From positions 186,001 to 250,000 of the forward strand of contig JANWIP010000005.1 of assembly GCA_025449845.1 (NCBI GenBank): a stretch of 64,000 bases of DNA, written 5' to 3'. The stretch's first letter is position 1, and each line of letters opens with the position of its first letter. The position numbers were made by a program, and so were the translations under genes. The notes under the pieces were generated by a model. It saw only the letters and a program-made list of their open reading frames with translations. It searched no databases and was not told the origin of the DNA. The DNA comes from Solirubrobacteraceae bacterium. Its GTDB lineage: Bacteria; Actinomycetota; Thermoleophilia; Solirubrobacterales; Solirubrobacteraceae. Shown here piece after piece: positions 1,072 through 59,706 of the stretch.

Positions 1072-1098
1072 TGATCGGCAGCAGCCGCTGGGACTTAA
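1072..1098 (-). promoter_or_regulatory. sigma-28-type promoter of the CHAP gene
   Basis: On the minus strand TTAA (1095-1098) is followed by 15 bases and GCCGATCA (1072-1079), 7 of 8 matches to the sigma-28 -10 GCCGATAA. Nine bases separate the -10 from the ATG, so the transcript would start at or next to the start codon. Confidence 0.65.
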
Positions 1099-1338
1099 GC
1101 GCTTGAGCTGGAACCGCTTGGACGAGTGACTCGTCAGAAACATTGTGGGGTGTGGTGGTCGTGGGGTGGGTTGGCTTGGGCGCTTGTCTTTGTGCTTGCC
1201 GTTGGGCGGTGGTGGGAGGTTGGTTTTATGAGTGTCGAGGTGATGGATAGTCTGAATAGATCTAATAACAGGAGTCAGGTCTGGTGTGCTCGTCGTTGGT
1301 GGGTGCCGGGGTCGTGGACGATGATTGGAGCTTTAGTT

Positions 1339-4300
1339 ATGCGCGGGGTGTGGCTTTTCTTGGGTGGGTTGGGTGGCGTGGGGTTGGTGTTGATTGTGGT
1401 GTTGGTGTTCGCGTCGGGGAGTGGTGCTACGCGGCCTGCTGGCGCGAGGTCGTCCGGCAGGATGGGTGCCGGCTCGGCGTCCAGCGTCAGGCGCGGACTG
1501 CGGGCGGCGAGTAGGGCGCGGTTGGCGCGTGCTCGGCGTGCGTTGGTTGTGCGCAGGCGTCGTCTTGGGGGTCCGGCGGCGCGTGCGGCGCGTGCTCGCT
1601 CCCGGATGGCTTTCAGCGGGCTGGGGGTGGGTGCCGCAAAGGGTCTGCTTGTGGGCGACTATGGCTCGTGGTTGGCTGGGGTGAGCGGGAACCCTGCGGC
1701 TACGGTCTCACGGTCGGGTGGCGTGGTCAGATATTTGAGCGACTACCGTGCTTTGGTTCGCGGCCGGCGTGGTCTTGAAGTCGTAACGTCGAGCGTGCCG
1801 TTGCGTGTCGCGGATGGTGGGCGTGGGAAGCGTCCGGTTGATCTGCGCTTGGCGGCAGGCGGGGGTGGGTTTGCCCCGGTGCGGCCGTTGGCTGGCGTGT
1901 CGATCGCACGGGATTCGGGCGGTGGCGTGGCGTTGGGGGGCGATGGTTTGCGGGTGGTGCCGGAGGGCGCGAACGTGCCGGGTGGGCTGGTGGATGGTGG
2001 GCAGGATGTGTTCTTTGGTGGTGTTGGCCGGGATATGGATACTGTCGCGGCTCCGGTGCTGGGCGGCGCGGAGTTGTTCGCAGTCCTGCGCTCACGGTTG
2101 AGTCCGCAGGAGATCCGCTATCGCATGACGTTGCCGCCTGGTGCTGTGTTGCGGGCCGAGGGGGGCGGTGCGGTGGTGTCGCGTGGGGATGTAGCGTTGG
2201 CGCGTATCCCGGCGCCTGTCGCGCGGGATGCCCAGGGCAGTCCGGTTGAGGTCTCGATGGCGGTGTCTGGTGATGAGTTGGTGTTAAGCGTCCCTCATCG
2301 GGGGCACAGCCTGGATTATCCTCTAATAGTAGACCCTAGTATCATCAATATCACCGAAAAATCTGAACACTGGAAAACCTTTAAGACGTTTCGTCAATGC
2401 GGGGAAGAAGCTGAGATTTTTGGTAAAGGTCCCGGTCTTGGTTCGCCGATGACGATAGAAGCGCCGGCAACGGAATATCCTCGTCCTGAAATCCCGTTTT
2501 GTAAAGAAGAAGAACGTAACTATCAGATAGCTAACTTTATCTGGATCTGGGAAGCGGCAAGCTATTTCACGGGAATCGAATTTTATAATGTGTCTCTTGC
2601 GACGAGCTCGACGCCTGAAGATGGGGAAGCTTCGCGGTGGGAACTGTATGCCTGTAAACATGATGTGACTGGGTATAATGGGACTCCGCCTCCTTCGACG
2701 GTTGTGGGTAGCGAAATTGGGTGTGCCGCTAGTGGGACAAATGAGGTTTATGTATCGTTGTTTGTCGGCCAATTGACTAAATTGGCCCCGATTACAGTGA
2801 GTGCGTCGCTGTCGGTTGAAGCGATCCTGTTGCATGAAGCGTGGGTGCTCCCGGAAGAATCTGAAGGTTACGGTCCGAGTAACCCTGGTGAGCCGCAGCG
2901 CCCGCGTTGTCTGCTGGGGCCGCGCCCGGTTGATTGCGCGACGGGTAACCAGGTTGAGAGCCAGCCCGATCTGCGTGTCGGCGGGCGCGGCCTGGGGCTC
3001 GGTTTGACGCGCACGTATAATTCGCGTCTGGCTGCGAAATTGACGAGTCACGGGGTGTTTGGGTACGGTTGGACGGGTCCGTATAGCGCGCATCTCACGA
3101 CGGAAAAAGTCGTGTTCGGCCTGGGGATGAAAGAAGTCGCTACGGTCTACCAGGACAACGGCAGCACAGTCCGCTTCGAACGGGGCTCAAGCAAAGAACC
3201 CTGGGTTGCGGCCGGCCCTCTCGTTCAGGCGACACTCGCGGCCGGGGGAGGCACCACCAGCGTTTATACGCTCCCAGACCAAAGCAAACTGACTTTCGAT
3301 GGGAACGGCCGTGTCAGCAGCGAGTCTGACCGCAACGGGAACCCGACGACGATGACCCGCAGCGGCGAAGGGCGCCTGGAATCGGTCTCCGACCCGGCGG
3401 GCCGTAAGCTCACGTTCGCGTATAACGGGGAAGGCCTCATCGAAAGCGTCAAAGACCCACTGGGGCACACCGTGAAATACACATACGAAGCCGGGAGCCT
3501 CGCAACGGTCACCGAGCCTGGGGAAAGCAGCCCGCACTGGCGGTTCAAATACGACAAAGCGCACCAGCTGGCCGCCCAGACCGACGGGCGCGGGAATACC
3601 ACAACCACTGAATACGACAGCTCGCATCGTGTGATCTCGCAGACCGACCCGATGAAACGCACCCGGAAATGGGAATACTCAGGGATCGCGGGCCTGGAAA
3701 ACACCGAAACCGTCATCACCGAACCGAACGGCACGCTCACACGTGAGACGTTCAATCTCCAAGAGGAGCCGCGGACGATCACACGCGCAATGAAAGAATC
3801 CACCGAAACGACGACGTTCCGCGAATACGACGAAAACTACAACCTGACTTCTATCACTGAACCGGAAGGCCGCAAAACCACTTACACCTATGACGCGGCC
3901 GGGAACCGCACGAGCGAAACGAACGCCGACGGGAACCAAGCCAAATGGACGTACAACGGGACACACGACCTGCTGATCGCGACACGACCGAATGGTGAGA
4001 CGACAACCATCGTACGCGACAGCCACGGCAACGCCGAAACGGTCTCCCGTCCCGCCCCCGGAAAAGCGACGCAGACAACGAGCTACCAGTACGAACCAAA
4101 CGGGGATCTCAAAAGTATGACCGACCCGTTGAAACACACCTGGAGCTACGAATACAACAAACAGGGCGACCGCACCGGAGAAACGGACCCCGAAAGCGAC
4201 AAGCGCACGTTCGTCTACGACGAAGACTCCCGCGAGACCTCGACCGTTAGCCCCGCTGGGAACGCCAAAGGCGCCGAACCCAGCCAGTACACCACCAAAA

Positions 4301-6393
4301 TCGAACGCGACGAACAGGGCAGGCCCAAAACCATCACCGACCCCCTCGGCCACACCAGCAAATACGCATACGACGCGAACGGGAACCTCGAAAACCAGAC
4401 CGACGCAAACGGGCACACCACCGGCTACGCCTACGACGCTGATAACGAGCAAACGAAAGTCAAAGAACCCAACGGCACCACCACCACAACCGGCTACGAC
4501 AGCGCCGGCGGCGTCACGAGCCAGACCGATGGCAACAAACACACCACCACATACACCCGCAACCCGCTGGAGCAGATCACCGAAACCACCGACGCCCTCG
4601 GACGCAAAACGCTCAAGGAATACTACAACACCGGGGATCTCCACCGGCTCATAGACGCCAGCGAACGGACCATCACCTACACGTATGATCCAGCAGGCCG
4701 TCTCACCGCGATCACCTACAGCGACGAAAAAACACCAGGAGTCAAATACGAATACGACGCTGACGGCAACCGGACCGAGATGACTGACGGAACTGGGACC
4801 ACCACCTACACCTATGACACCCTCGACAGGCCCGTCCACAACACCGACGGCCACGGCAACAAAACCGGCTGGGAATACGACCTCGCGGGTCAGCAAACAA
4901 AACTGACCTACCCCAATGGCACCCAGATCACCCGCACGTACGACAACGCGGGACGCCTGCAGAGCGTCACCGACCCATTCCAAAACACAACGACATTCAC
5001 ATACGACCCCAACTCCAACCTGACCACCACCGTCTTCCCCAAAGGAACACACGAGCAAGACAAAACAACCTACAACAACGCCGACCAGCAAACGAAAATC
5101 ACGATCGCCGGCAACGGTGTAAAAGCACTAGCGTCGCTCACCTACACGCGCGACAACGACGGACAGATCAAAACAACAACCACAACCGAACTGCCCGGAG
5201 AAGAAAAAACCAGCCACGCCTACGACACCAACAACCGCCTCGAAAAATCCAGCAGCACCACATACGCATACGACCCCGCGGACAACCCCACGACACTGGG
5301 GTCCAACACCAGTGTCTACGACGCCGCAAACGAGCTCAAAACCAGCGGCACCAACAGCTACGGATACAACCAGATCGGCGAGCGCGTCACCAACACCACC
5401 AAAAGCGGCCAGACCACGACATACGCCTACGACGAGGCGGGGGATCTGATCCAAGTCAAAAGCCCCACCCTCAACGTCAACTACGCCTACGACGGCGACG
5501 GCCTACGCACCTCCCAAACCAAAGGCAAAACCAGCTACACCACCTGGGACATCCACGCGGGCCTCCCCCTGATCCTCAGCGATGAAAAGAACAACTACAT
5601 CTACGGACCCGACGATCTTCCCATCGAGCAGATCCAACTAGGAAAAAACACGATCCTCTACCTCCACCACGACCAGCAGGGCTCAACACGCCTACTCACC
5701 AGCACCACTGGCACCATCGAAAGCACCAACACATACGACGCCTATGGCAACACGACCGCCACCAAAGGCACCGCAACCACCCCACTCGGCTACGACGGCC
5801 AGTACACCGACACCGATACCGGGCTCATCTACCTCCGCGCCCGCGCCTACGATCCCGGAACCGCACAGTTCCTCAGCGTCGATCCGCTTGTATCGACCAC
5901 AGGTGCACCGTACACCTACGGCGGCGATAACCCACTCAACAACGGCGACAGGACCGGGCTCTCCGGAGGACCCTTCGAAGGAGAAGTCAACCTTCCATGC
6001 GTCTGGCCGTGCGGCCCTCCACCGCCAGGCGCCCGCGAAGCCGTCGAAGAAGGCATCCACTCAGGCGAACAGGCGCTCGAAAGCCTCTTCAACGCAATCA
6101 CCGGTGACCAGTTAGCCGACGAAGGCGAGCAGGTACTACAGGAACGCCAGGCCGCAGACGAAGCGTGCAGTCTTCCCGAATTAGATAAGAAGGGGATGGT
6201 TCACAGAAAGATTCCAAGCTACCCGAATCCGAACTGGACACACGAAGACCTTGAGCAGATAGCCGAAGACCTACGTACGAGCATCGGCAAGCGTCTCGAA
6301 GTGATGGCGAAGAAGGGCGAGGAGGGGGGACACCGAAACAGAGTGTCAGAAGAGGAACAGCTTTTGCGCCAGATCGAACGACTGCTACGCTGA
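1339..6393 (+). CDS. Secreted RHS/YD-repeat protein with a variable C-terminal toxin-like tip
   Basis: From the ATG at 1339 (GGAG eight bases upstream) the product has 1684 residues. MRGVW followed by a long hydrophobic run is a good signal or anchor sequence; an ATG at 1228 with GGGAGG is the alternative start. A middle region (about 2330-2880) of unlike composition has no recognised fold. LGLTRTYNSRLA resembles the DUF6531-type entry to an RHS shell. Dozens of YD repeats (YDxxGNxT) follow, then the RHS core end GLIYLRARAYDPGTAQFLS. About 140 residues after the core form a distinct tip ending GHRNRVSEEEQLLRQIERLL, the arrangement of polymorphic toxins released from an RHS cocoon. I do not recognise the tip's activity. 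The next gene starts seven bases after the stop and is a candidate immunity gene. No type VI or VII secretion genes are nearby. Confidence 0.88.
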   Translation: MRGVWLFLGGLGGVGLVLIVVLVFASGSGATRPAGARSSGRMGAGSASSVRRGLRAASRARLARARRALVVRRRRLGGPAARAARARSRMAFSGLGVGAAKGLLVGDYGSWLAGVSGNPAATVSRSGGVVRYLSDYRALVRGRRGLEVVTSSVPLRVADGGRGKRPVDLRLAAGGGGFAPVRPLAGVSIARDSGGGVALGGDGLRVVPEGANVPGGLVDGGQDVFFGGVGRDMDTVAAPVLGGAELFAVLRSRLSPQEIRYRMTLPPGAVLRAEGGGAVVSRGDVALARIPAPVARDAQGSPVEVSMAVSGDELVLSVPHRGHSLDYPLIVDPSIINITEKSEHWKTFKTFRQCGEEAEIFGKGPGLGSPMTIEAPATEYPRPEIPFCKEEERNYQIANFIWIWEAASYFTGIEFYNVSLATSSTPEDGEASRWELYACKHDVTGYNGTPPPSTVVGSEIGCAASGTNEVYVSLFVGQLTKLAPITVSASLSVEAILLHEAWVLPEESEGYGPSNPGEPQRPRCLLGPRPVDCATGNQVESQPDLRVGGRGLGLGLTRTYNSRLAAKLTSHGVFGYGWTGPYSAHLTTEKVVFGLGMKEVATVYQDNGSTVRFERGSSKEPWVAAGPLVQATLAAGGGTTSVYTLPDQSKLTFDGNGRVSSESDRNGNPTTMTRSGEGRLESVSDPAGRKLTFAYNGEGLIESVKDPLGHTVKYTYEAGSLATVTEPGESSPHWRFKYDKAHQLAAQTDGRGNTTTTEYDSSHRVISQTDPMKRTRKWEYSGIAGLENTETVITEPNGTLTRETFNLQEEPRTITRAMKESTETTTFREYDENYNLTSITEPEGRKTTYTYDAAGNRTSETNADGNQAKWTYNGTHDLLIATRPNGETTTIVRDSHGNAETVSRPAPGKATQTTSYQYEPNGDLKSMTDPLKHTWSYEYNKQGDRTGETDPESDKRTFVYDEDSRETSTVSPAGNAKGAEPSQYTTKIERDEQGRPKTITDPLGHTSKYAYDANGNLENQTDANGHTTGYAYDADNEQTKVKEPNGTTTTTGYDSAGGVTSQTDGNKHTTTYTRNPLEQITETTDALGRKTLKEYYNTGDLHRLIDASERTITYTYDPAGRLTAITYSDEKTPGVKYEYDADGNRTEMTDGTGTTTYTYDTLDRPVHNTDGHGNKTGWEYDLAGQQTKLTYPNGTQITRTYDNAGRLQSVTDPFQNTTTFTYDPNSNLTTTVFPKGTHEQDKTTYNNADQQTKITIAGNGVKALASLTYTRDNDGQIKTTTTTELPGEEKTSHAYDTNNRLEKSSSTTYAYDPADNPTTLGSNTSVYDAANELKTSGTNSYGYNQIGERVTNTTKSGQTTTYAYDEAGDLIQVKSPTLNVNYAYDGDGLRTSQTKGKTSYTTWDIHAGLPLILSDEKNNYIYGPDDLPIEQIQLGKNTILYLHHDQQGSTRLLTSTTGTIESTNTYDAYGNTTATKGTATTPLGYDGQYTDTDTGLIYLRARAYDPGTAQFLSVDPLVSTTGAPYTYGGDNPLNNGDRTGLSGGPFEGEVNLPCVWPCGPPPPGAREAVEEGIHSGEQALESLFNAITGDQLADEGEQVLQERQAADEACSLPELDKKGMVHRKIPSYPNPNWTHEDLEQIAEDLRTSIGKRLEVMAKKGEEGGHRNRVSEEEQLLRQIERLLR

Positions 6394-6400
6394 GCCGATC

Positions 6401-7153
6401 GTGACCAGTGACATAGTACGAGGCGACGAACTGATCGAGCGCATCTTCACCGACGGCGACGACGGCCAGACGTCTAACGACCTACTTAAAGAGATGTTCG
6501 ACGGCTACCCCGTCGAGAAGCTCATACCACTGCTGCGCAGCGACGACGACGAGATCGCAAAGGCCGGCGCCTTCATCGCAGAGGAGCTGGCAGCCAAGGC
6601 CGCTCCACTTATGTCAGACCTGACACGGCTGCTCGGACACCGAAACAGAAGCGTCAGGTACGACATACTAAATGCTGTGCTCCTCGCCACGACCCCCAAT
6701 GACGGCGAAGTGATAGCGCAGGCGCTGACTTTGATTCATGATCCCGAGCGTATCGTCAGATCGAATGCTTTGGATTTCCTCGTGTGTGCCGACCGAGAGC
6801 AGCTCGTCGCCGGGCTACCGCACGTCGCCGACCGCAATATTGCAGCTGGGCTGGGTTGGCTGCTGGACGCCGAAGAGTCGCCTAGCGATGACGGCTACGT
6901 TGAGATCGAATCAAGGATTGATGACAATGACCGACTGGTGCGCTGGTTTGCCGCGGTGGCAGCTACACGGATATCACGACGCAAGCTTGACCCCCTCAAC
7001 CCTGATTCCCTTAACCTCGGCCCCCTCAATCACGCTGCCGAATCGAGCGATGAGGAGTTGCAAGAATTCGCGGCACGCCAGCAGCGAGCGCTTCCGGAAG
7101 AGCTAGAACGACTGCAACGGAGACTCCAGCGAGCGCGGAATCGAAAGCAGTAG
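6401..7153 (+). CDS. HEAT-like repeat protein, candidate immunity protein for the RHS tip
   Basis: The product has 250 residues and starts at a GTG seven bases after the RHS stop. It is made of short helical pairs such as EKLIPLLRSDDDEIAKAGAF, LTRLLGHRNRSVRYDILNAV and DPERIVRSNALDFLV, spaced like HEAT/ARM repeats. The C-terminal third is charged, ending in a basic coiled stretch (EELERLQRRLQRARNRK). It has no signal peptide, so it should be cytoplasmic. HEAT-like proteins are a known class of immunity partner in polymorphic toxin systems. The immunity role is inferred from gene order; the repeat architecture is visible in the sequence. Confidence 0.6.
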   Translation: MTSDIVRGDELIERIFTDGDDGQTSNDLLKEMFDGYPVEKLIPLLRSDDDEIAKAGAFIAEELAAKAAPLMSDLTRLLGHRNRSVRYDILNAVLLATTPNDGEVIAQALTLIHDPERIVRSNALDFLVCADREQLVAGLPHVADRNIAAGLGWLLDAEESPSDDGYVEIESRIDDNDRLVRWFAAVAATRISRRKLDPLNPDSLNLGPLNHAAESSDEELQEFAARQQRALPEELERLQRRLQRARNRKQ

Positions 7154-7369
7154 ACGCCTGTGCGACGAAGAGCGCGGTAGCTCATGATGTCGGGAGTGCC
7201 CCCGGGGCAGATCAAACCCTCAACTTCGGCTTGATGATCTAGACGCAGCGTTCCCACCCACGCAAGCCGCCCAAATCAAGGGGGGTCTTCCGGCCCATCG
7301 CTCCGACATACCTCTGTAAGGACCCAACCACGGGTCGAACCAGAAGGTGCCAAGGACGGTGATGGCGAG

Positions 7370-7708: not shown

Positions 7709-7712
7709 CAAG

Positions 7713-8697: not shown

Positions 8698-8704
8698 GCG
8701 TTCA

Positions 8705-8747
8705 TCTCCTTGATGACGGTTGGTTGATAGTCCCGAGCCGACTCCCT
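8705..8747 (-). promoter_or_regulatory. Two CsrA-type binding sites in the flagellin leader
   Basis: The minus-strand leader contains AGGGA (within ACAGGGAGT, 8743-8747) and AAGGA (within CAAGGAGAT, 8707-8711), both ANGGA cores. The second overlaps the Shine-Dalgarno sequence. Two sites about 36 bases apart, one on the ribosome site, match the layout of CsrA repression of hag in Bacillus subtilis. fliW and csrA are encoded at 51203-51889. Confidence 0.6.
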
Positions 8748-8770
8748 GTCGACTCTTGCTTCACGCCGGT

Positions 8771-8797
8771 ATATCGTCATGACGTGGTGGAACTTGA
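8771..8797 (-). promoter_or_regulatory. sigma-28-type promoter of flagellin
   Basis: TCAA (8794-8797), 15 bases, then GACGATAT (8771-8778) on the minus strand. The predicted transcript start is near 8764, giving a leader of about 67 bases that contains both CsrA-type sites. Confidence 0.7.
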
Positions 8798-24322: not shown

Positions 24323-24354
24323 CGAGGGACGACTCCGAGGGAGAGTCGCCCGGT

Positions 24355-24381
24355 TTATCGACGCCCATCAGGCGGGCTTTA
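24355..24381 (-). promoter_or_regulatory. sigma-28-type promoter upstream of fliO
   Basis: TAAA (24378-24381), exactly 15 bases, then GTCGATAA (24355-24362): a full -35 match and 7 of 8 for the -10. It lies 33 bases before the fliO start, inside the 125-base gap between fliM and fliO, the largest gap in this stretch of the cluster. Confidence 0.75.
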
Positions 24382-28430: not shown

Positions 28431-28457
28431 TCATCGGCCGCGGGCCGTGATCCTTCA
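28431..28457 (-). promoter_or_regulatory. Candidate sigma-28-type promoter of motA
   Basis: TGAA (28454-28457, overlapping the flbD stop), 15 bases, then GCCGATGA (28431-28438). Nine bases separate the -10 from the motA ATG, so the product would be leaderless. The -35 has one mismatch. Confidence 0.5.
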
Positions 28458-28706
28458 GTTCGCATGGACTGGACGGACAGGCGAGGGGTCGCGTTCGGGC
28501 CTTCGGTTTCGCATCGCCTCCGAGAGGACCTCCACGCGCCAGGCCCGCACGTAGTCGGCGACCTGCTCGGGTGACTCCGCCACGACGACCTTGGCCGTGG
28601 TGGCCAGGGTGACGACGGTATCGGGGGTGGACTCGATCGTCACGATCAGGTCCGGGTTGAGTTGGAATGGCTCGTCGGTGTGGCCGAGCCGGTGCAGGGT
28701 TATCAC
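28455..28706 (-). CDS. flbD: FlbD-family flagellar protein
   Basis: The product has 83 residues from the GTG at 28706. GAGGAGG seven bases upstream decides this start over an ATG twelve codons earlier. The sequence VITLHRLGHTDEPFQLNPDL and IESTPDTVVTLATTAKVVVA matches the small FlbD family found between flgE and motA in many flagellar operons. Its function is not well defined; a role near hook or stator assembly is assumed. The C-terminal tail is longer and more basic than usual. Confidence 0.88.
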   Translation of the reverse strand: MITLHRLGHTDEPFQLNPDLIVTIESTPDTVVTLATTAKVVVAESPEQVADYVRAWRVEVLSEAMRNRRPERDPSPVRPVHAN

Positions 28707-28743
28707 TTTGAGCCTCCTCTCTGATTGGTTTGGCGTTGCCACT

Positions 28744-33444: not shown

Positions 33445-33471
33445 TGATCGGACGGCGACGATGGTTCTTTA
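33445..33471 (-). promoter_or_regulatory. sigma-28-type promoter of the fliJ operon
   Basis: TAAA (33468-33471), 15 bases, then TCCGATCA (33445-33452), seven bases before the fliJ GTG. It probably drives fliJ-SLT-fliK-flgD-flgE. The sequence CCGATCACCGG at its -10 recurs near other starts in the cluster. Confidence 0.65.
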
Positions 33472-33796: not shown

Positions 33797-34225
33797 ATGA
33801 AGACCACCAAGAAGGACGAAGACATTTCGATCACCCTCTCTCCCGTGCAGATCGAGCAGGTGATGCGTTCCGCCGGCCAGAGTCGCAACGGGACCGTGTC
33901 CAACCTGTTGCTGGCCGCGCTGGACAACGCTTACAAGCCGACCAACGGCAACAACAAACGCAACAAGGGCAAGTCGCTGCAAAAGGCCACGCAGGAGGCA
34001 CTTGAGGACGCCCTGACCGATCCCCAGCTCTCCCAGTCGCTGCTGCGCGGTCTTGCGATTCTCTCTTCCTATGGCCCCGAGCGCCCGTGGCGGGCAATCA
34101 TCGACCTGGCACAGCAATTGGGTATGTCTCCATCCACAACCCATCGCTACGTCAAGACGTTGCGCGCCGTGGGCCTGCTGGAGCAGAACCCCACGACAAG
34201 GGAGTATCGCCCGGTCGCGCGTTAG
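33797..34225 (+). CDS. Divergent HTH regulator with an IclR-like DNA-binding domain
   Basis: The product has 142 residues. The N-terminal part (ISITLSPVQIEQVMRSAGQS) ends in a Lys/Asn-rich linker. The C-terminal winged helix runs LLRGLAILSSYGPERPWRAI, DLAQQLGMSPSTTHRYVKTL and GLLEQNPTTREYRPVA, as in the IclR N-terminal domain, but the effector-binding domain is absent. It is the only plus-strand gene within the 15.9-45.5 kb flagellar region and splits fliI from fliJ. It has its own AT-rich upstream region with inverted repeats. I infer a locus-specific regulator of motility. Confidence 0.75.
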   Translation: MKTTKKDEDISITLSPVQIEQVMRSAGQSRNGTVSNLLLAALDNAYKPTNGNNKRNKGKSLQKATQEALEDALTDPQLSQSLLRGLAILSSYGPERPWRAIIDLAQQLGMSPSTTHRYVKTLRAVGLLEQNPTTREYRPVAR

Positions 34226-40212: not shown

Positions 40213-40357
40213 GGTGGGAAGGCTTTCGGCTGTGCCCTCCTTGGGCCACTTCCGACCCCCATCCTTGAGGGCCGACGTATGATCAAAAGAGAGGGGCCCG
40301 GCTCCTCGGCCTCTGGCCGACCGCGCCACCCTCTAATCGAGGTTCAGGTCCCTCCCG

Positions 40358-40384
40358 TCATCGGCCGCCTGCGGGCAACCTTTA
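40358..40384 (-). promoter_or_regulatory. sigma-28-type promoter of the flgB operon
   Basis: TAAA (40381-40384), 15 bases, then GCCGATGA (40358-40365): a full -35 and 7 of 8 for the -10. It is one of the two best matches in the window. The predicted leader is about 140 bases. Confidence 0.8.
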
Positions 40385-41129: not shown

Positions 41130-41156
41130 TGATCGGCCGCGACTTTTGGAAGTTGA
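41130..41156 (-). promoter_or_regulatory. sigma-28-type promoter of fliS
   Basis: TCAA (41153-41156), 15 bases, then GCCGATCA (41130-41137), ten bases before the fliS ATG. It lies in the 47-base gap after fliD, so fliS can be expressed separately from the cap protein. Confidence 0.7.
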
Positions 41157-42953: not shown

Positions 42954-43024
42954 GCCGTATTCCTCCTGAAAGCACTCTTTGCGGGTCCGTCCTTGGGCCG
43001 CTTCGCTCTTTGACTTGTCCACCG

Positions 43025-43052
43025 TGATCGACCCCTACCCCCGAAAGCTTTA
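43025..43052 (-). promoter_or_regulatory. sigma-28-type promoter of flaG-fliD
   Basis: TAAA (43049-43052, overlapping the stop of the glycosyltransferase gene), 16 bases, then GTCGATCA (43025-43032). The predicted leader is about 65 bases with a good ribosome site. Confidence 0.65.
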
Positions 43053-45553: not shown

Positions 45554-45581
45554 TCAAGTGTCCGTGCAAAGCCACCGATGA
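45554..45581 (+). promoter_or_regulatory. sigma-28-type promoter upstream of fliA
   Basis: TCAA (45554-45557), 16 bases, then ACCGATGA (45574-45581), 57 bases before the fliA ATG. This would let the sigma factor activate its own gene. Confidence 0.55.
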
Positions 45582-45638: not shown

Positions 45639-46448
45639 ATGCAAACCAAGGAGCAGGGCGCCGCCAGGGTCTCGGCCGCTGAAGTGCTGACTTTGTGGCT
45701 GCGCTACCAGCGCACCGGCGACTCGCGTCTGCGCGACCGCCTCGTCTTCATCTTCATGCCCATGGTTCGCTACATCGTCTACCGCAAGGTCCGCGAGGTC
45801 CCCGCGCAGTGCGAGGTGGAGGACTTCCTCTCCTGTGGTCTTGAGGCGCTGCTGCGCTCGATCGACCGCTATGACCCCGAGAAGGGCGCCACGCTCGAGC
45901 AGTTCGCCTGGACGCGCATCCATGGCGCGGTGCTCGATGAGCTGCGCCGCCACGACTGGGCGCCACGTTCCCTGCGTCGCGCCGAGCGCGCCATCAACGG
46001 TGCGCGCGACCAGTTCGCCTCCACGCACGAGCGCCAGCCCACGCGTGAGGAGCTGGCCACCGCGGCCGGCATGGAGCCATCCGAGCTCTCGCATCGCCTC
46101 GATGAGATCGCGCTGGCCGATGTGGCCTCCTTGAACAAGACCGTGCGCTCTGAGGACTCGACCACGATCGAGCGCATCGACACGCTGGAGAGCACCGACG
46201 AGGACGCCGATCCCAGTCTCTCCGCCGAGCGGCGCGCGGCCAAGGAACGTTTCCGCACCGCTTTTGCCCAGCTGCCCGCCCGCGAGCGTCAGGTCGCGGT
46301 GCTCCTGTATGTCGAGGGGCGCACGCTGCGCGACATCGGCGCTCGTCTGGGCGTCTCCGAGAGTCGCGTCTCGCAGATTCACACCGAGCTGCGACGGCGC
46401 CTGCGCGAGCAGCTCGCCAGCGACGCCTCGCTCTTCTCGGCCGTCTAG
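45639..46448 (+). CDS. fliA: FliA/WhiG-family sigma factor (sigma-28)
   Basis: The product has 269 residues; GGAG is eight bases before the ATG. Region 2 is MVRYIVYRKVREVPAQCEVE and ALLRSIDRYDPEKGATLEQF with AWTRIHGAVLDELRRHDWAP. Region 3 contains RQPTREELATAAGMEPSELS. Region 4 has the helix-turn-helix GRTLRDIGARLGVSESRVSQ. It directs RNA polymerase to motility promoters of TAAA-N15-GCCGATAA type. No FlgM anti-sigma gene is recognisable in the window. Confidence 0.96.
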   Translation: MQTKEQGAARVSAAEVLTLWLRYQRTGDSRLRDRLVFIFMPMVRYIVYRKVREVPAQCEVEDFLSCGLEALLRSIDRYDPEKGATLEQFAWTRIHGAVLDELRRHDWAPRSLRRAERAINGARDQFASTHERQPTREELATAAGMEPSELSHRLDEIALADVASLNKTVRSEDSTTIERIDTLESTDEDADPSLSAERRAAKERFRTAFAQLPARERQVAVLLYVEGRTLRDIGARLGVSESRVSQIHTELRRRLREQLASDASLFSAV

Positions 46449-46506: not shown

Positions 46507-46533
46507 TAAAGAAGCTGCGCTTGCGGCCGAACA
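46507..46533 (+). promoter_or_regulatory. sigma-28-type promoter of the flgF-csrA operon
   Basis: TAAA (46507-46510), 15 bases, then GCCGAACA (46526-46533), ten bases before the flgF ATG. It lies directly after the fliA terminator, so the operon needs its own promoter here. Confidence 0.65.
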
Positions 46534-47260: not shown

Positions 47261-47992
47261 ATGCTCGAAGGTCTCTACTCAGCAGCGGCCGGCATGTCCG
47301 CCCAGCAGGAGCAGCTCGACACGATCGCCAACGATCTCGCCAACGTCTCCACCACCGGCTACAAGTCCGAGCGCGTCGGCTTTCAGGACCTGCTCTACAA
47401 CCAGGTCAAGCAGGCCGGCACGTCCACCACGTCAGGTGCGGGCGCCGTGGCGAGCGTCATCGGTCGTGACGGCGCGCAGGGGTCCCTGCAGCAGACCGGC
47501 CGCCCGCTCGATCTCGCGATCCAGGGTGAAGGGTTCTTTCAGGTCAAGCTTCCCTCCGGTCAGCTTGCGCTCACCCGCAACGGCGCGCTTTCCGTGGACG
47601 GGCAGGGCCATCTCGTCACCGCCGACGGCAGCCTGCTCGATCCCCCCATCACGCTGCCCGCCAAGGTGTCCGCCGCTGAAGTGTCGGTTGCCGCGGATGG
47701 CACCGTGAGCGCCGGCGCCACCAAGCTCGGGCAGATCGCGCTCGTCAACGTGCCCGCGCCCGACAAGCTGCTGGCCAACGGCCATGGGGGCTTCACCGTC
47801 ACCGCCGCATCTGGTGCCGCCAAGGCCGTCGCTCACCCCCAGCTCATGCAGGGGGCGCTCGAGGGCTCAAACGTGGATATGGGCGCGGAGATGGTCACCA
47901 TGATGAGCACCCAGCGCAACTACTCGCTGGCCTCCAGCGCCATCAAGACGCAGGACCAGATGCTCGCCATCGCCAACCAACTGCGCGCATGA
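47261..47992 (+). CDS. flgG: FlgG, distal rod protein
   Basis: The product has 243 residues: LYSAAAGMSAQQEQLDTIAN and DLANVSTTGYKSERVGFQDL at the N-terminus, RPLDLAIQGEGFFQVKLPSG in the centre, and GSNVDMGAEMVTMMSTQRNY at the end. The distal rod lies between proximal rod and hook. Its stop overlaps the next ATG (ATGA). Confidence 0.95.
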   Translation: MLEGLYSAAAGMSAQQEQLDTIANDLANVSTTGYKSERVGFQDLLYNQVKQAGTSTTSGAGAVASVIGRDGAQGSLQQTGRPLDLAIQGEGFFQVKLPSGQLALTRNGALSVDGQGHLVTADGSLLDPPITLPAKVSAAEVSVAADGTVSAGATKLGQIALVNVPAPDKLLANGHGGFTVTAASGAAKAVAHPQLMQGALEGSNVDMGAEMVTMMSTQRNYSLASSAIKTQDQMLAIANQLRA

Positions 47993-50240: not shown

Positions 50241-50243
50241 GTC

Positions 50244-51202: not shown

Positions 51203-51661
51203 ATGCCAGCCACCGACACCGCCACCATCGAGAGCTCCCGCTTTGGCACCCTCCAGGTGGTCGCCGAGGAGATAATTGAGTTCCCGTTTGGCCTCATTGG
51301 CCTGGAGGGTTCGCGCTACACGCTGCTCGACCGCAATCCGGGCAGCGGCATCCTCTGGCTGCACTCCCTGGACAGCCCCGAGCTGGCGCTGCCCGTGCTT
51401 GACCCCCACCCCTTCTTCCCGGCCTTCGAGCTCGCGCTCAGCGAGGAGGATCAGGAGCGCATCGGCGCTCCCGACCCCGCCGCGGCGCAGCTGTATGTGA
51501 CCATGCGGGCCGCCCCCGATCCCGCCGATGTGGTCGTCAATCTGCGCGCTCCGCTCATCGTCTATGAGGGGCGCGGCTACCAGGTGCTCAACGCGGCGCC
51601 GGGAGCCGATCTGCAGGCCCCCCTGTTCCCGGGGCGGTCGCGCGCGGTTGATGCTGCATAA
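51203..51661 (+). CDS. fliW: FliW, CsrA antagonist and flagellar assembly factor
   Basis: The product has 152 residues: RFGTLQVVAEEIIEFPFGLI with GLEGSRYTLLDRN, and LYVTMRAAPDPADVVVNLRA with PLIVYEGRGYQVL are typical. FliW binds CsrA until flagellin displaces it, so flagellin represses its own translation. It is next to csrA and both follow flgL, as in Bacillus. Confidence 0.96.
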   Translation: MPATDTATIESSRFGTLQVVAEEIIEFPFGLIGLEGSRYTLLDRNPGSGILWLHSLDSPELALPVLDPHPFFPAFELALSEEDQERIGAPDPAAAQLYVTMRAAPDPADVVVNLRAPLIVYEGRGYQVLNAAPGADLQAPLFPGRSRAVDAA

Positions 51662-51670: not shown

Positions 51671-51889
51671 ATGCTGATCCTCACCCGGCGTGCAGGAGAG
51701 CGCGTGGTGATCGGGGATGACATCCTCGTCACCGTCATGGAGGTCTCGGGCCAGACCGTGCGGCTAGGTATCACCGCGCCTGAGCGCCTGCCCATCTACC
51801 GCGAGGAGATCTGGCTCGCCGTGCAGGCGGAGAACCGCGCCGCGGCGGAAGCATCCGTGGACTCGCTGCCGGCTCAGCGACCTTCGTAG
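51671..51889 (+). CDS. csrA: CsrA, RNA-binding translational regulator
   Basis: The product has 72 residues: MLILTRRAGERVVIGDDILV, VSGQTVRLGITAPERLPIYR and EEIW, with the RNA-contacting arginine in YREEI. The C-terminal extension is Ala-rich. Its likely target is the flagellin leader at 8705-8747. The gene end overlaps the convergent enoyl-CoA hydratase gene by 16 bases. Confidence 0.96.
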   Translation: MLILTRRAGERVVIGDDILVTVMEVSGQTVRLGITAPERLPIYREEIWLAVQAENRAAAEASVDSLPAQRPS

Positions 51890-53380: not shown

Positions 53381-53403
53381 ATAGGCCCGCATTTGCGGGC
53401 TAT
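53381..53403 (-). terminator. Hairpin after tRNA-Gly
   Basis: GCCCGC/GCGGGC stem with loop ATTT, extended by three A-T pairs past a one-base bulge, 7 bases downstream of the tRNA on the minus strand. Confidence 0.6.
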
Positions 53404-53409
53404 CGTGAG

Positions 53410-53483: not shown

Positions 53484-53524
53484 GCGGGGGCGTAACTATA
53501 GACGGAACCTCCAGGCGGAACCAC

Positions 53525-54354: not shown

Positions 54355-54391
54355 GACCGCGCCACCCTATCCGCCGCATGGGACCTTTGGG

Positions 54392-55270
54392 TCAACCTCG
54401 CGGCAGGTACCTGCCACCGTCTCCCCGCACCAGCGCGCCAGTCAGCTCCAGCTCGGCCAAGGCCACGATCGTCTCCTCGGCATCGTTGCCGGCGGCGGCG
54501 AGTTTGGCGAGCGTGTCGTGTCCGCTGCCAACCTGCGCCAGGACCTCTCGCAGCGATGGTGTCAGGGGGATCTTCTTTGCGGGGGCTTGCTTGACGCCTA
54601 CGCCGTAGAGGGCATCGAGCGCGTCCTGGGGACCTCGGATCAGGCGCGCGCCGGCAGCCAGGAGGGCATGGGGACCTTGGGACACTGGTGAGCTGACGCG
54701 CCCGGGGACCGCCGCGACGGCTCTGCCCAGGACTTCGGCCAAGCGGGCTGGGGCGAGCGCCGTAGGGTGCTCCTCGGCCTCCACGACGATCACCATCTGC
54801 GCCATCCCCACGACGATCCTGGTGCGGGCGAGGTGAGACCAGCGCCGTATGCCGCGGCCCCACGGCTGCTCGGACACGACGCAGCCGACGTCTCCGATGC
54901 GCTTGTGCAGGGCTCTGCGCGACGCCGGGGAGCAGACATCGGCGCCGCCGGGCATGACGGTGACGGTCGGGCCGTCCACCTCCAGGGCGCCCAGGTGCGC
55001 GGCGGCCGCGATGCCATCGGCCAGGGCGCCGAGGACGGTCACGCCACTGGCGGCCAGGCCCCGCGCCAGTCCGCGGGTCGTCTCCATCCCATAATCGGTC
55101 GCCTTGCGCGAGCCCACGATTGCGACCGCCGGCTGACTCAGCAGGCGCTCCAGGCGCTCGGGGCCGCCCACTACATAGAGCACACGCGGTGCGCCTCGCA
55201 TCTGCGCCAGAGCGGCCGGGAAGCACGGGTCGTGGCGACAGAGCTCCCCACGTGAGGGCTCGGCGCTCAT
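54392..55270 (-). CDS. dprA: DprA/Smf-like DNA-processing protein (divergent)
   Basis: The product has 292 residues. The Rossmann-like core has VAIVGSRKATDYGMETTRGL, AAHLGALEVDGPTVTVMPGG and a C-terminal winged-helix-like region (LREVLAQVGSGHDTLAKLAA). Several conserved DprA positions differ: the usual SGxAxGID is LGALADGIA, and the FPxRNRxIAGLS loop reads WSHLARTRIVVGMAQ. It precedes nothing competence-specific but follows comM with a 4-base overlap. DprA loads RecA on incoming DNA; activity of this variant is uncertain. Confidence 0.88.
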   Translation of the reverse strand: MSAEPSRGELCRHDPCFPAALAQMRGAPRVLYVVGGPERLERLLSQPAVAIVGSRKATDYGMETTRGLARGLAASGVTVLGALADGIAAAAHLGALEVDGPTVTVMPGGADVCSPASRRALHKRIGDVGCVVSEQPWGRGIRRWSHLARTRIVVGMAQMVIVVEAEEHPTALAPARLAEVLGRAVAAVPGRVSSPVSQGPHALLAAGARLIRGPQDALDALYGVGVKQAPAKKIPLTPSLREVLAQVGSGHDTLAKLAAAGNDAEETIVALAELELTGALVRGDGGRYLPRG

Positions 55271-56808
55271 GCCACGCGCCTGCTCTGCAGCGTTACCTCC
55301 GCGCGCCAGCCCAATGCCTCCGCGAGGTGCCGCTTGCTGGTGTGTCTGCTGCCTTCGAGGTCAGCCACCGTGCGGGCCACGCGCAGCAGGCGATGCTGCC
55401 CGCGGGCGCTCAGCTCGCCGCACTCCTGCACCTTGCGCAACATCTGCACGCCACTCGCATCCAACGCCATGTGACGGCGCAGCATGTGCACATCCATCTG
55501 GGCATTGGCCGTCACTCCGTCGTCTTTCAGTCTCGCCGCCTGGCGCTCGCGCGCACCAATCACCTGCTCGCGGGCGTTCTGAGAGCTCGTCACGGGCGCA
55601 GCGCGCAGCTCGCTCGCGCTGGGACGCTCGACGGTGGCAAGCAGATCGATGCGATCTAGCAGCGGGCCGCTCAGCTTGCGGCGATGACGAGCCAGGTCGG
55701 CTTCGGTGCAACGGCAGCGTTCGCCTTCTCCCAGATAGCCGCAGGGGCAGGGGTTGGTTGCGGCAACCAGCATCAGCCTTGCCGGGTAGACCGCCGAGTG
55801 CTGGGCCCTCACGATCGCCACCCGGCCGTCCTCCAGCGGCTGGCGCAGGGCCTCCAGGACGCTGCGCGAGAACTCCGAGAGCTCGTCCAGGAACAGCACG
55901 CCGTTGTGGGCCAGCACCACCTCGCCCACCCAGCCGCGTCCGGCGCCGCCAATCAAGCCGGCGGTGGTGACCGAGTGGTGGGGGGAGCGAAACGGACGGC
56001 GCCGCACCAGCTCTTCGCTGTCCAGGCTGCCGGTGATGCTGTGGATTCTTGTCACCTCGATCGCCTCGCTGCTGCTAAGCGGCGGCAGAATCGAGGGCAG
56101 CCTTTGCGCCAGCATCGTCTTACCTGTTCCCGGCGGCCCGCTCAGCAGCATGTTGTGTGCGCCCGCTGCCGCCACCAGCAGTGCTCGCACCGCCTGGCGC
56201 TGTCCGCGCACGTCACCCAGATCCTGCTCCCACTCCTCGCCCATCTCGCCGCGCCCTATGCGCGGTGGCACCGACGCCGGGGTAACCGCATCGCCGGGGC
56301 CGCCATTGAGGACTCGCACAACGCTTTGCAGGCAGCGCGCGGCCACCACTCCTAAATCCTCCACCAAGCCCGCCTCGCGCGCTCGCTGGGGGGCCAGCAC
56401 CAGGGCGTGAAGCCCGGCCTCGCGCGTTGCCTGAGCAATCGCCAGCGAGCCGTGGCACGGTCTGACTTCGCCGTCCAGCGACAGCTCGCCGAACAGCGCA
56501 TGATTCGCTAGTCGCTCATTGGAGATCTGGCCGCTAGCCGCCAATACCGCGCAGGCCAGTGCCAGGTCAAAACCGGGGCCCGCCTTGGGCACGTCGCCGG
56601 GAGCCAGGTTCGCGGTGATTCGTCGCGCCGGAAATTCGTAGCCCGAGTTGAGGATCGCCGCCTGCACACGGTCGCGCGCCTCGCGCACCGCCGCATTGGC
56701 CAAACCCACGATCGCGAAGTTGGGCAGCCCGCCGCGGATATCGACCTCAACGGTCACCTGCCGCGTCTGGAGCCCTTCGATCGTGAACGTCTGCGCGCGA
56801 GCCAGCAT
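55267..56808 (-). CDS. comM: ComM/YifB-family Mg-chelatase-like AAA+ ATPase
   Basis: The product has 513 residues: an N-terminal Lon-protease-like domain (VDIRGGLPNFAIVGLANAAV), then AAA+ with Walker A SGPPGTGKTMLAQRLPSILP and Walker B GVLFLDELSEFSRSVLEALR. A zinc-like cysteine set is in NPCPCGYLGEGERCRCTEAD. The C-terminal lid contains GARERQAARL. ComM is a branch-migration helicase helping recombination during transformation, consistent with adjacent dprA. Confidence 0.95.
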   Translation of the reverse strand: MLARAQTFTIEGLQTRQVTVEVDIRGGLPNFAIVGLANAAVREARDRVQAAILNSGYEFPARRITANLAPGDVPKAGPGFDLALACAVLAASGQISNERLANHALFGELSLDGEVRPCHGSLAIAQATREAGLHALVLAPQRAREAGLVEDLGVVAARCLQSVVRVLNGGPGDAVTPASVPPRIGRGEMGEEWEQDLGDVRGQRQAVRALLVAAAGAHNMLLSGPPGTGKTMLAQRLPSILPPLSSSEAIEVTRIHSITGSLDSEELVRRRPFRSPHHSVTTAGLIGGAGRGWVGEVVLAHNGVLFLDELSEFSRSVLEALRQPLEDGRVAIVRAQHSAVYPARLMLVAATNPCPCGYLGEGERCRCTEADLARHRRKLSGPLLDRIDLLATVERPSASELRAAPVTSSQNAREQVIGARERQAARLKDDGVTANAQMDVHMLRRHMALDASGVQMLRKVQECGELSARGQHRLLRVARTVADLEGSRHTSKRHLAEALGWRAEVTLQSRRVA

Positions 56809-56871
56809 GTCTTTTCCGTCTCCTCGGTCAGTTGCGGGAGACGGTCAGGCTAAGCCGCGCTGGCGATGGGA

Positions 56872-56894
56872 CTCTCGGGCGGACCGCCCGAAAG
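56872..56894 (-). terminator. Terminator of the NlpC/P60 gene
   Basis: Minus strand CTTTCGGGCG/CGCCCGAGAG, a 10-bp stem with one G-U pair and loop GTC, five bases after the stop. Confidence 0.75.
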
Positions 56895-56898
56895 GCTT

Positions 56899-58578
56899 CT
56901 ACAAGCCGGCCGGGTGACGCGCGACGTAGCCGCCCGTCGAGGTCATCGAGCTCGACCAGCGCGTTCCCGTCTCGGCCTGCGCCACGGTGTCAAAGCGCCG
57001 CCCGTCGATCACCATGAAGGCATGTTCGGCATTGGCGTAGATCGTGATGTGGCTGCCAGGGCCTGCTTCGCCGTAGGACTCAAGCGCGCTCGAGTCCTCA
57101 GGAGAGCTCAGCAGCCCGCCGCCGTGCAGTGCGTAGGACACCGATCCTGAGCAGTCATAGCCAGTCGACTGGAAAGAGCCGTGCCCGCCGCCATACACAT
57201 ACGGCCGCGTGGCGATTTCATCGGCCGCTGCGATCACACGCGACACGACGCCTTCACCGCCGCTGCTGCTCGAACTCGAGGAGTCCCCGCCGCCGCTTGA
57301 GCCGCCGCTGCTGTGAGCGTGGGGGGGATGCAGCGTGCTCTGTCCGCTCACGCCCAAAGCGCTCCACGTGGCCGGGCCCACGACGCCATCCACCGTAAGA
57401 CCGTGGCGGGCCTGCAGGCTGCGCACGGCTGCCTCGGTTTCCGGGCCGAAAGTCCCGTCGGCGGGCAGGTGCAGGGCCGCCTGCAAGCGACTGACCGGAC
57501 TGCCGCTGCCAGCTTCTTCGCCGGCATGACTTTCAGTGTCGACATGATTCGCGGTGTCCGCTGGCTGCGCATGTGCCGCCGCGTGGCGATGGCGGATGTG
57601 GGGAGGTTCAGGGAGCGCCGAGGCCGGCGGTTCGAGCATTTCATGGCTGCTCACCCCGACCGCCTTCCAGGTGGCCGGCCCGACGACGCCGTCCACGTTC
57701 AGGCCCTCGCTGGCCTGCAGATGACGGATGGCTGCCTCGGTTTCGGGTCCGAATTCCCCGTCGACGTGCAGGTGCAGACGCTGCTGCAGACGGACCACGG
57801 GATTGACCGTGCTCGGTGTCTTGCTCGGCTGTGGGGTTTCTTCGCTCGGCTGTGAGGCTGCCGCGACGGCGTCCTGCGCGGGCTGTGCGACCTGTGCAGC
57901 ACTCGCGGTGGCCTCGACTGCGGTGCCCCCCTCGACCGCCGTGCCCGTGGTGCCCTTGTTGGAGCTTTCGCCAAGCTGATCCAGCACATCCGCGCTTGAG
58001 ATCACCGGGGGAGCGTTCTTCGCCAGGGCGCCGCTCGTGGCCGGTCCGGCCACGCCATCCACCATCAGGCCGCGACTGGCCTGGAACTGCTTGACGGCCG
58101 CTTCTGTCTGCGGGCCGAAGATGCCGTCGGCGGCAATCCCCAGCGCAGCCTGCAGCAGACGCACCTGGCGTCCTTCGCTACCGCTGCTCAGAACGATCGT
58201 GTGTTCTGTGGTCGTCGGCGGCATCGGCGCGGCGGGGAGGCTTGAGCTGGATGTGGCGCTGGCGTCAGCCAGGCCTGAGGCGGGCCCTGCGGTGAGCGCA
58301 GCGAGCGCTCCCAGCGAGATGCGTTTGGCGCGCGAGCTGGCCGGCACGAAGCGCAGCTCCGCTGCCCTGCGGCGCGCTCTGGAGCGCCCCAAGGACAGCT
58401 CCCACGGTTCGTTGTTTGAAAGGTCCCGGCGCAGCCGGTTGCGTGCCTCGATCAGCGAGGACATCGAGGAGGTCATGGGCCTGCGTCCACCGGTGGCGCG
58501 CTGGCGACGCGACTGTGAGCGCTCCAAAGAAGCGTCCCACAACTCGAGCGCAGCAAGATCTCGCGGGAATCCCGACAT
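56899..58578 (-). CDS. Peptidoglycan-binding NlpC/P60-like hydrolase under a c-di-AMP riboswitch
   Basis: The product has 559 residues. The N-terminus twice shows an [18 protein letters not shown]-type motif followed by basic residues, then a hydrophobic segment ([20 protein letters not shown]). Three PG_binding_1 repeats follow, each with DGxFGPxTEAA and VDGVxGPAT (around residues 135, 270 and 375), separated by Ser/Thr/Gln linkers. The C-terminal NlpC/P60 domain has cysteine in [12 protein letters not shown] and histidine in [10 protein letters not shown]. It should cleave peptide stems in the wall. A ydaO-type riboswitch precedes it, as for many actinobacterial wall hydrolases. Confidence 0.92.
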
Positions 58579-58599
58579 GCGTATAGCGTCCTTTCAAAT

Positions 58600-58745
58600 G
58601 TTGCTGGGCGCCTACGGGGTTAGCTGTCGGGCTCGCGCACTTACGCTACGCCACAGGAGTGGCGATTCGCCCCCGCCGCCTCAGAAAGGCAGCATTTGGG
58701 TCCCCCGCTCCTTCACCCCTTGGGGAGAAGGACTCGGCACGAACA
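58600..58745 (-). promoter_or_regulatory. c-di-AMP (ydaO/yuaA) riboswitch
   Basis: The minus-strand leader contains the ydaO consensus blocks in order: AAGGGGTGAAGGAG, GGGGGACCCAAAT, GGGGGCGAATCGC and CCCGACAGCTAACC followed by CCGTAGGCG. The last block is nearly identical to the family's conserved CCGACAGCTAACCTCGTAGGC. It lies about 20 bases before the NlpC/P60 ATG. The class binds c-di-AMP and usually turns expression off. Boundaries are approximate. Confidence 0.9.
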
Positions 58746-58854
58746 GGCAGGACCGTACCAGGTCCAATTGCAATTTGCATCACATTGGAAGGAGTGCAAG
58801 GTTTCTTGCCGACGACTTGGTGGCTCCGCATGAGGCGCAGAGAGGGCTGGCGCG

Positions 58855-59592
58855 GTGATAAGTTCGAGTTGGATGGACCCCGACTCCGCACCAACATCCT
58901 CGTCTGAGCCGCCCGCACCTGAGCCTCCTCCTGCGCCGCCGCGCCGGGGTTTTGACGCGCGTGTGTTGATAGCGCTTGTCGCGATTCTCGTGATCGCAGG
59001 TGGCGTGGCGGTGGTGACGCAGGGCAGCAGCAGCAGCAAGCAGCAGTTGCCGGGTAACGTCAACAGCGCCAGCTCATCGAGCTTCATTGGCTCGGTCGCC
59101 ACGCCGTTGAAGCCCGCGCCGTCGCTGCGGCTTCACAACTACCTGGGCAACGCCGTCAACATCGCCAGCTACCGAGGCAAGGCGGTGCTGGTGACTTTCC
59201 TCTACACCAACTGCCCTGATGTGTGTCCTCTGATCACGGCCAATCTGCGCGTGGCCCTCAGCATGATGAGCCCGCAGCAGGCTGCCAAGACACAGGTCAT
59301 CGCCGTATCGGTGGACCCCCGAGGGGATACGTCCAAGGCCGTCGCGGCCTTCCTCAAGCGTCACGAGATGACAGGCCGCATGCAGTATCTCATCGGCTCG
59401 GCCCATGAACTGGCCCATGTGTGGCAGGAATGGAACGTCGGCTCTGAACAGGACGCGCAGCAGCCTCAGCTCGTCAATCACTCGGGCTTGGTCTACGGCA
59501 TCAGCGCCAGCGGCAAGCTGACCACGCTCTACGCCGCGAACTTTAAGCCCAGCGATATTGCTCACGACGCGCCGCTGCTGAGCTCGCAGTAG
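58855..59592 (+). CDS. SCO1/SenC-family copper chaperone
   Basis: The product has 245 residues (GTG at 58855; an ATG at 58873 is possible). A Pro-rich cytoplasmic start precedes one membrane helix (VLIALVAILVIAGGVAVVTQ). The thioredoxin-fold domain has the copper-binding CPDVCP in FLYTNCPDVCPLITANL and the ligand histidine in QLVNHSGLVYGI. It delivers copper to cytochrome oxidase, which fits the nearby cupredoxin and cytochrome b genes. Confidence 0.93.
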   Translation: MISSSWMDPDSAPTSSSEPPAPEPPPAPPRRGFDARVLIALVAILVIAGGVAVVTQGSSSSKQQLPGNVNSASSSSFIGSVATPLKPAPSLRLHNYLGNAVNIASYRGKAVLVTFLYTNCPDVCPLITANLRVALSMMSPQQAAKTQVIAVSVDPRGDTSKAVAAFLKRHEMTGRMQYLIGSAHELAHVWQEWNVGSEQDAQQPQLVNHSGLVYGISASGKLTTLYAANFKPSDIAHDAPLLSSQ

Positions 59593-59678
59593 CCCACTGC
59601 TTTGCCTGCCGCGGCGTCCACGCTTAGGACTGCGGCGTTCAGGGCCTAGGACTGTCAGCGCAAGGACTCGTTGCACAG

Positions 59679-59706
59679 TCAAGTTTTGGCTCTCCCGAGC
59701 CGATAG
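59679..59706 (+). promoter_or_regulatory. sigma-28-type promoter of the PAS-GGDEF gene
   Basis: TCAA (59679-59682), 16 bases, then GCCGATAG (59699-59706; 7 of 8), 30 bases before the ATG at 59737. The -35 region reads TCAAGTT, as at the flagellin promoter. Confidence 0.7.

Follow-up and report, generated by a model that had tools for sequence, protein, structure and literature searches.

Sigma-28-type promoters before the flagellar operons of a Solirubrobacteraceae bacterium, and a predicted split between leaderless mRNAs and CsrA-type leaders

The usual explanation for the order in which the bacterial flagellum is assembled invokes tiers of sigma factors. The target lists of sigma-28 are wider than flagellin, cap and chaperone, and the hag mRNA of Bacillus subtilis is, beside Campylobacter jejuni flaA, another flagellin leader controlled by CsrA and FliW. 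According to the literature, the genes of the major flagellin, the filament cap and the chaperone depend on sigma-28 in Helicobacter pylori and C. jejuni (PMC3930126), the consensus of sigma-28 promoters is TAAA / GCCGATAA (PMC8325347), and the leader of C. jejuni flaA adopts a two-hairpin form that is bound by CsrA and antagonized by FliW (PMC4894983). Here, a flagellar locus is described that lies within 64,000 nucleotides of a Solirubrobacteraceae bacterium (assembly GCA_025449845.1, contig JANWIP010000005.1, positions 186,001 to 250,000; hereafter the window), for which an earlier reading of the letters had proposed eleven copies of a sigma-28-type promoter (hereafter the original prediction). 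It is probable that these elements are promoters of the FliA/WhiG family, that they make the flagellar genes a regulon of one tier, and that this regulon is then divided post-transcriptionally into operons with leaderless mRNAs and operons with CsrA-type leaders. The putative one-tier transcription and the division into leaderless and leadered operons go beyond the original prediction, and no description of them was found in the literature, as far as open-licence papers are concerned.

All eleven elements are present at the predicted positions, each on the strand of its own gene (eight on the minus and three on the plus strand; Table 1), and the TNAA at -35, the spacer of 15 (eight elements) or 16 bases (three elements) and the CGA within the -10 hold for each of them. 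A TAAA-like -35 together with a GCCGATAA-like -10 at a spacing of 15-16 bp is the form of sigma-28-dependent promoters. While the elements themselves are real, the motif under which they had been presented, TNAA-N15/16-GCCGATNA, fits exactly only four of the eleven, and the loosest rule that is common to all, TNAA-N15/16-NNCGANNN, matches the window 48 times, compared with a mean of 36 and a maximum of 48 in 20 order-3 Markov sequences, and is by itself not above chance, so that both were discarded as definitions of the regulon. Unlike the worded rule, the graded signal of a matrix built from the eleven elements is strong: these take places 1-11 among all window positions on both strands (16.8-21.7 bits), followed by a position with 14.9 bits, and the best score in the reversed window sequence is 13.8. 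With leave-one-out matrices 10 of the 11 elements stay in the top 12, and the fliC element drops to place 31. The gene groups fliO-flhF, motA-fliM, fliJ-flgE, flgB-fliI, fliS, flaG-fliD, fliA, flgF-csrA and fliC each open with a site, where the extents of the putative operons follow gene order and strand, and flhF, flgE and flaG take their names from domain and position (for flaG from position, the Pfam match of the product being below cut-off with 15.4 of 23.8 bits). The longest open reading frame (ORF) of the CHAP gene reaches 1143 and overlaps its own promoter element, an overlap that is resolved because a start codon is available further downstream.

For the comparison with relatives, stretches of their genomes were fetched, orthologs were found and the upstream regions were scored with the window matrix at a threshold of 14 bits. 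Sites above this threshold precede orthologs of the candidate genes in 63 of 104 regions, compared with 19 of 300 regions of other locus genes (six before flgG and four before TPR-GT), one of 404 reversed and nine of 404 antisense regions; the 63 include one match for the PAS-GGDEF gene (1/1) that is no real ortholog but matches another protein in part, and one fliM row (G054) is an edge artefact. Sites are frequent before fliO (8/8 relatives), motA (8/8), fliS (11/13), flaG (9/12) and flgF (8/12), and less so before flgB (6/12), fliJ (5/9), fliC (3/8), fliA (3/17) and CHAP (1/4), where a wider search region that has no reversed control gives sites of 14.1-15.8 bits in all four relatives with an ortholog. 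No real ortholog of PAS-GGDEF was found in the fetched stretches, and its site is not claimed as conserved. At 16 bits or more, 68 sites were counted in the 558 kb that make up 12 flagellar stretches of the relatives, and none in the reversed sequence; 48 of the 68 lie in sense upstream regions of candidate genes, which amount to 30,000 of 1,116,306 strand-bases (2.7%), and the other 20 lie elsewhere, five of them before flgG. This comparison of upstream regions with the rest is the better one, because reversing the sequence underestimates how often coding DNA matches by chance. In a class-wide draw, a site of at least 14 bits precedes motA in 16 of 30 loci (reversed, 0/30). The sites are thus conserved before orthologous operons overall, weakly so before fliC and not before fliA, and several observations weigh against a uniform regulon. 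Scores below 14 bits occur at fliC in 5/8 relatives, at flgB in 6/12, at fliJ in 4/9 and at flgF in 4/12, and the poor conservation of the fliA site means that autoregulation is not general. A further strong site, probably a real extra promoter, lies 77-87 nt before flgG in 6/12 relatives (G002, G020, G022, G031, G033 and G054) and is absent from the window. Furthermore, the signal is uneven, with no site of at least 16 bits in 40 kb of G052 and only two in G033, and the stretch G020b around a second sigma copy, in which no flagellar genes were found, has three such sites in 20 kb.

Beyond the locus the motif is less informative. The form TNAAG-N15/16-YCGAWNA has 70 matches in the genome, eight of them in the 64-kb window compared with ~1.4 expected by length. 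Among the matches listed (100 of 206 in one case), 52 were picked by hand and scored, and regions were retrieved for the 20 best, all outside the window. An ORF of at least 200 amino acids encloses 14 of these 20. This indicates that a genome-wide regulon cannot be delineated by the motif alone, and the extension of the regulon to the genome was dropped. An equal density of sites in coding regions, named beforehand as the observation that would speak against the promoters, is not seen within the locus, but genome-wide motif matching does not pass this test. A few of the remaining outside matches could be real (L132, with a downstream ORF at +9, L119 and L120), but they are not claimed. The same 14 matches, together with the performance of the loosest wording, are what could be said for a loose motif picked by eye in a GC-rich locus; such a chance origin is refuted by the leave-one-out ranks and the comparison in relatives, and we regard it as extremely improbable. 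As for chemoreceptors as further targets, no MCPsignal domain was found in the genome itself (92.6% completeness), which apparently encodes flagella without chemotaxis receptors. A separate observation concerns G024 (L094-L096), which has a locus-type FliA, in which no FliG was found, and whose best promoter match precedes the gene of a 630-aa sensor-like protein.

The presence of fliA in the locus was borne out, as the gene at 45639-46448 encodes a sigma factor of the FliA/WhiG family. It scores below the cut-offs of the narrower models for FliA (NF005413, 175.6 of 201 bits) and WhiG (NF004935, 206.5 of 343 bits), and we therefore claim no more than the name of the subfamily. Among solved structures it is matched best by 6pfv and 6pfj (titled RNA polymerase sigma factor), ahead of FliA entries; these two structures are presumably Streptomyces WhiG. 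Orthologs with at least 54% identity occur in 20 of 61 genomes, namely in all 16 with FliG and in four of the 45 others (Fisher p 2.4e-11, with kinship ignored), so that the locus-type sigma co-occurs with flagella. The form and orientation of the motif, its position before operon starts, its conservation in relatives and the sigma gene in the locus together support a sigma-28 (FliA/SigD-type) regulon, as had been proposed, as the best reading of the elements. Against the assignment to this particular sigma stands a second factor of the FliA/WhiG type, L001 (G000:C5:158825-159589), which might read the same promoters. That L001 is in fact the main reader, with the locus fliA as a minor or late amplifier, appears distinctly unlikely: L001 shares 38% identity with the window sigma, and the region 4 helices of the two resemble each other (ESRISQLHT in L001 versus ESRVSQIHT), matches at its level (35-42% identity and at least 143 bits to the window sigma) occur in at least 52 of the 61 genomes, and WhiG has the same flagellar promoter specificity (PMC8325347), but these matches are also found in genomes without FliG, while the locus-type sigma tracks FliG.

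No sigma-54 (PF04552) was found in any of the 61 genomes, with a control positive in 4/14, and no FlgM (PF04316) was detected in the genome itself or in its genus, where a divergent FlgM is possible. Taken together, this suggests that one sigma-28 tier may serve the genes of rod, export apparatus, hook, motor and filament, i.e. all mapped flagellar groups, no scan for sigma-70 promoters having been made. FlgM-like matches in 9/61 relatives, eight of them over the cut-off and including the flagellated G025 and G035, speak against this. The ORF at 47989 was considered as FlgM and rejected, as it matches a rod-binding protein just over the cut-off. An ordinary two-tier hierarchy, in which the early operons depend mainly on undetected sigma-70 promoters and the sigma-28 promoters are secondary, would agree with the reviewed hierarchies, where the basal-body genes come early and those that depend on FliA come late (PMC3930126), and a conserved site does not explain how fliA is first switched on; however, fliO and motA carry the sigma-28 site in 8/8 relatives each, and we consider such a hierarchy unlikely, though a serious alternative to a single tier.

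The operons differ in how far the site lies from the start codon. For motA, fliJ, fliS, flgF and CHAP, in the window and in relatives, 7-11 bases separate the end of the -10 from the start codon in 44 of 49 cases (motA 7-9 in 6/9, fliJ 7-8 in 9/9, fliS 7-11 in 11/13, flgF 8-11 in 13/13 and CHAP 7-9 in 5/5 genomes); the counts for the four operons use rows of at least 11 bits, whereby one fliJ and one fliS row were dropped, and for one row of fliJ and several of fliS the start codon was chosen among in-frame candidates, not by BLAST extrapolation. Of the 16 class-wide motA loci with a site of at least 14 bits, 10 have a gap of 7-10, and the gaps of fliJ, fliS and flgF in the other family of the order are mostly 7-10. 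In C. jejuni, transcripts have been mapped to start 6-8 nt downstream of the sigma-28 sites (PMC3847290), so that with the gaps seen here a leader of 0 to ~4 bases is expected, and from this spacing the mRNAs of motA, fliJ, fliS, flgF and CHAP are predicted to be leaderless. Two points weigh against this: motA is preceded by gaps of 15-26 nt in the second family of the order, so that its leaderless layout does not hold everywhere, and flgF has GGAG directly before its start. The short gaps could also reflect compact intergenic space, with transcripts that start further upstream or read through. Space is indeed tight, as the -35 boxes of motA and flaG overlap the stop of the preceding gene (TGA of the motA element with ORF 28455-28742, which we take to be flbD-like, and TAA of the flaG element with a TPR/glycosyltransferase ORF that ends at 43050), but the gap stays at 7-11 nt in four operons and CHAP while the spacer sequences vary, and at flgF it does so in 13/13 genomes. 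We therefore hold mere compactness to be improbable, though not negligibly so, and leaderless transcripts remain the preferred reading.

The leaders of fliC, flgB and flaG are rich in ANGGA, with 11 occurrences compared with 3.6 in 500 dinucleotide shuffles for fliC, 21 compared with 5.4 for flgB and 10 compared with 4.3 for flaG, whereas fliO leaders have 0 compared with 0.25. The corresponding numbers for ANGGA in hairpin loops are 9 and 0.25 (fliC), 9 and 0.68 (flgB), 3 and 0.28 (flaG), and 0 and 0.02 (fliO). These counts cover the leaders with fixable starts, i.e. 5/5 for fliC, 9/10 for flgB, 6/11 for flaG and 8/9 for fliO. At the class level, 20/29 fliC upstream regions contain an ANGGA hairpin; 18/29 have a promoter site of at least 13.6 bits, and the hairpin is present in 17 of these 18 compared with 3/11 of the others, with a threshold that was set after seeing the table and with 29 of 30 loci used (L190 had too little upstream DNA). 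In 13 of the 18 fliC hairpins (five with a shifted loop were omitted), 5/7 pairs of the stem have changed on both sides, giving a covariation score of 0.48 compared with 0.17 in shuffles, which ignore kinship. The fliC leader thereby combines what is expected of a flagellin leader under CsrA and FliW, namely ANGGA loops, one of them over the ribosome site, and compensatory changes in the stem, and both fliW and csrA are present in the genome. The ANGGA sites in the fliC, flgB and flaG leaders are predicted to be CsrA binding sites. For flaG, the five of 11 leaders that were left out, three of which show no ANGGA in their first 100 bases, and the window's own leader, which has no 4-bp ANGGA hairpin by the rule used, argue against this; its second stem is well formed in relatives G002, G020 and G022. 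As to fliO, its leader contains a hairpin without ANGGA (24331-24347, minus strand) that is also present in several relatives, and this hairpin is followed by TCCCTCG, directly ahead of the start codon, in the window and in four of the relatives.

In the mechanism that we propose from these sequence data, the eleven elements would be read by a FliA/WhiG-family sigma, most likely the product of 45639-46448, and each mapped flagellar group would start at such a promoter, with no sigma-54 tier detected. Transcription of motA, fliJ, fliS, flgF and CHAP would begin at or within ~4 nt of the start codon and leave no leader for CsrA, while the leaders of fliC, flgB and flaG-fliD would be bound by CsrA at the ANGGA sites. 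Export of flagellin would then free FliW, which would titrate CsrA, so that the leaders are released. A more far-reaching version is a flagellar system without transcriptional tiers at all, in which promoters are of a single sigma-28 class and the 5' end of the mRNA sets its fate, the leaderless groups (motA, fliJ, fliS and flgF) escaping CsrA, and fliC, flaG-fliD and flgB being gated by CsrA and released by FliW; this is put forward tentatively, with the balance leaning somewhat against it. In the distant relatives G245 and G227 (the site of the latter has only 11.7 bits) the motA gap is 63-66 nt and contains ANGGA, which suggests that operons can change from one mode to the other in the course of evolution. 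Having one promoter class, no sigma-54 and, within the genus, no FlgM that was detected, the lineage would need another way of ordering assembly, and the conserved division between leaderless mRNAs and leaders of the CsrA type provides one that can be tested.

Two neighborhoods of the promoters may be mentioned in addition. A large RHS-repeat protein is encoded at 1126-6393 (plus strand), divergent from the CHAP gene, and the gap of ~770 bp between fliI and fliJ holds an antisense ORF (33797-34225, plus strand) that is HTH-regulator-like by eye; fliI and fliJ are much closer to each other in relative G002 than in the window.

Table 1. Candidate promoters, leader elements and regulatory genes in the window (gap, distance in bases from the end of the -10 to the start codon; operons as inferred).
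Feature	Coordinates	Strand	Remarks and evidence
Sigma-28-type promoter, CHAP gene	1072..1098	-	Start ATG 1062, gap 9; predicted leaderless; matrix
Sigma-28-type promoter, fliC	8771..8797	-	Start 8697, 73 nt from site; matrix
Sigma-28-type promoter, fliO (fliOPQR-flhBA-flhF)	24355..24381	-	Start 24322, leader without ANGGA
Sigma-28-type promoter, motA (motAB-fliL-fliN-fliM)	28431..28457	-	Start ATG 28421, gap 9
Sigma-28-type promoter, fliJ (fliJ-SLT-fliK-flgD-flgE)	33445..33471	-	Start GTG 33437, gap 7
Sigma-28-type promoter, flgB (flgBC-fliEFGHI)	40358..40384	-	Long leader; start uncertain, probably TTG 40212
Sigma-28-type promoter, fliS	41130..41156	-	Start ATG 41119, gap 10
Sigma-28-type promoter, flaG-fliD	43025..43052	-	Start probably ATG 42953
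Sigma-28-type promoter, fliA	45554..45581	+	Possible autoregulation; matrix
Sigma-28-type promoter, flgF (flgF-flgG-rod binding-flgN-flgK-flgL-fliW-csrA)	46507..46533	+	Start ATG 46544, gap 10
Sigma-28-type promoter, PAS-GGDEF gene	59679..59706	+	Start GTG 59713 (gap 6) or ATG 59737
fliA, FliA/WhiG-family sigma factor	45639..46448	+	TIGR02479, 198.2 bits over cut-off 189.6
fliC leader hairpin 1, AGGGA in loop, CsrA-type	8735..8755	-	Covarying stem
fliC leader hairpin 2, AAGGA over Shine-Dalgarno	8703..8715	-	ANGGA hairpin count
flgB leader hairpin with AAGGA	40257..40271	-	ANGGA hairpin count
flgB leader hairpin with AAGGA	40234..40247	-	ANGGA hairpin count
flaG leader, ANGGA site in imperfect stem	42981..43001	-	Not counted as hairpin by the rule used
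flaG leader, weak second stem at Shine-Dalgarno	42960..42972	-	Loop without full ANGGA
fliW	51203..51661	+	PF02623, E 1.4e-20
csrA	51671..51889	+	PF02599, E 2.3e-22

Compared with the described systems, the window sites share the promoter form TAAA / GCCGATAA with the FliA/SigD regulons of enterics, Bacillus and Campylobacter, but unlike in these regulons the rod, ring, export and hook groups also begin with a site, and unlike in the sigma-54/FlgM hierarchies no sigma-54, and no FlgM in the genus, was detected. In Actinoplanes missouriensis the flagellar genes are likewise directed by WhiG-like flagellar sigmas (PMC8325347), and several FliA-family sigmas likewise occur in one genome (PMC13293333). 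As in C. jejuni flaA (PMC4894983), the fliC leader has two ANGGA stem-loops, the second of which covers the ribosome site; fliW and csrA are adjacent in the window. Unlike in control of the flaA type, probable sites are also present in the leader of the flgB operon, and sister operons with the same promoter appear to be leaderless. In the leaderless mRNAs of Leptospira, Deinococcus and mycobacteria the start codon lies at or near the transcript start, as is predicted here; however, among the genes of Leptospira that are leaderless at 37 C, those for cell motility are under-represented (PMC5243855), whereas in the present lineage it is flagellar operons that would be leaderless.

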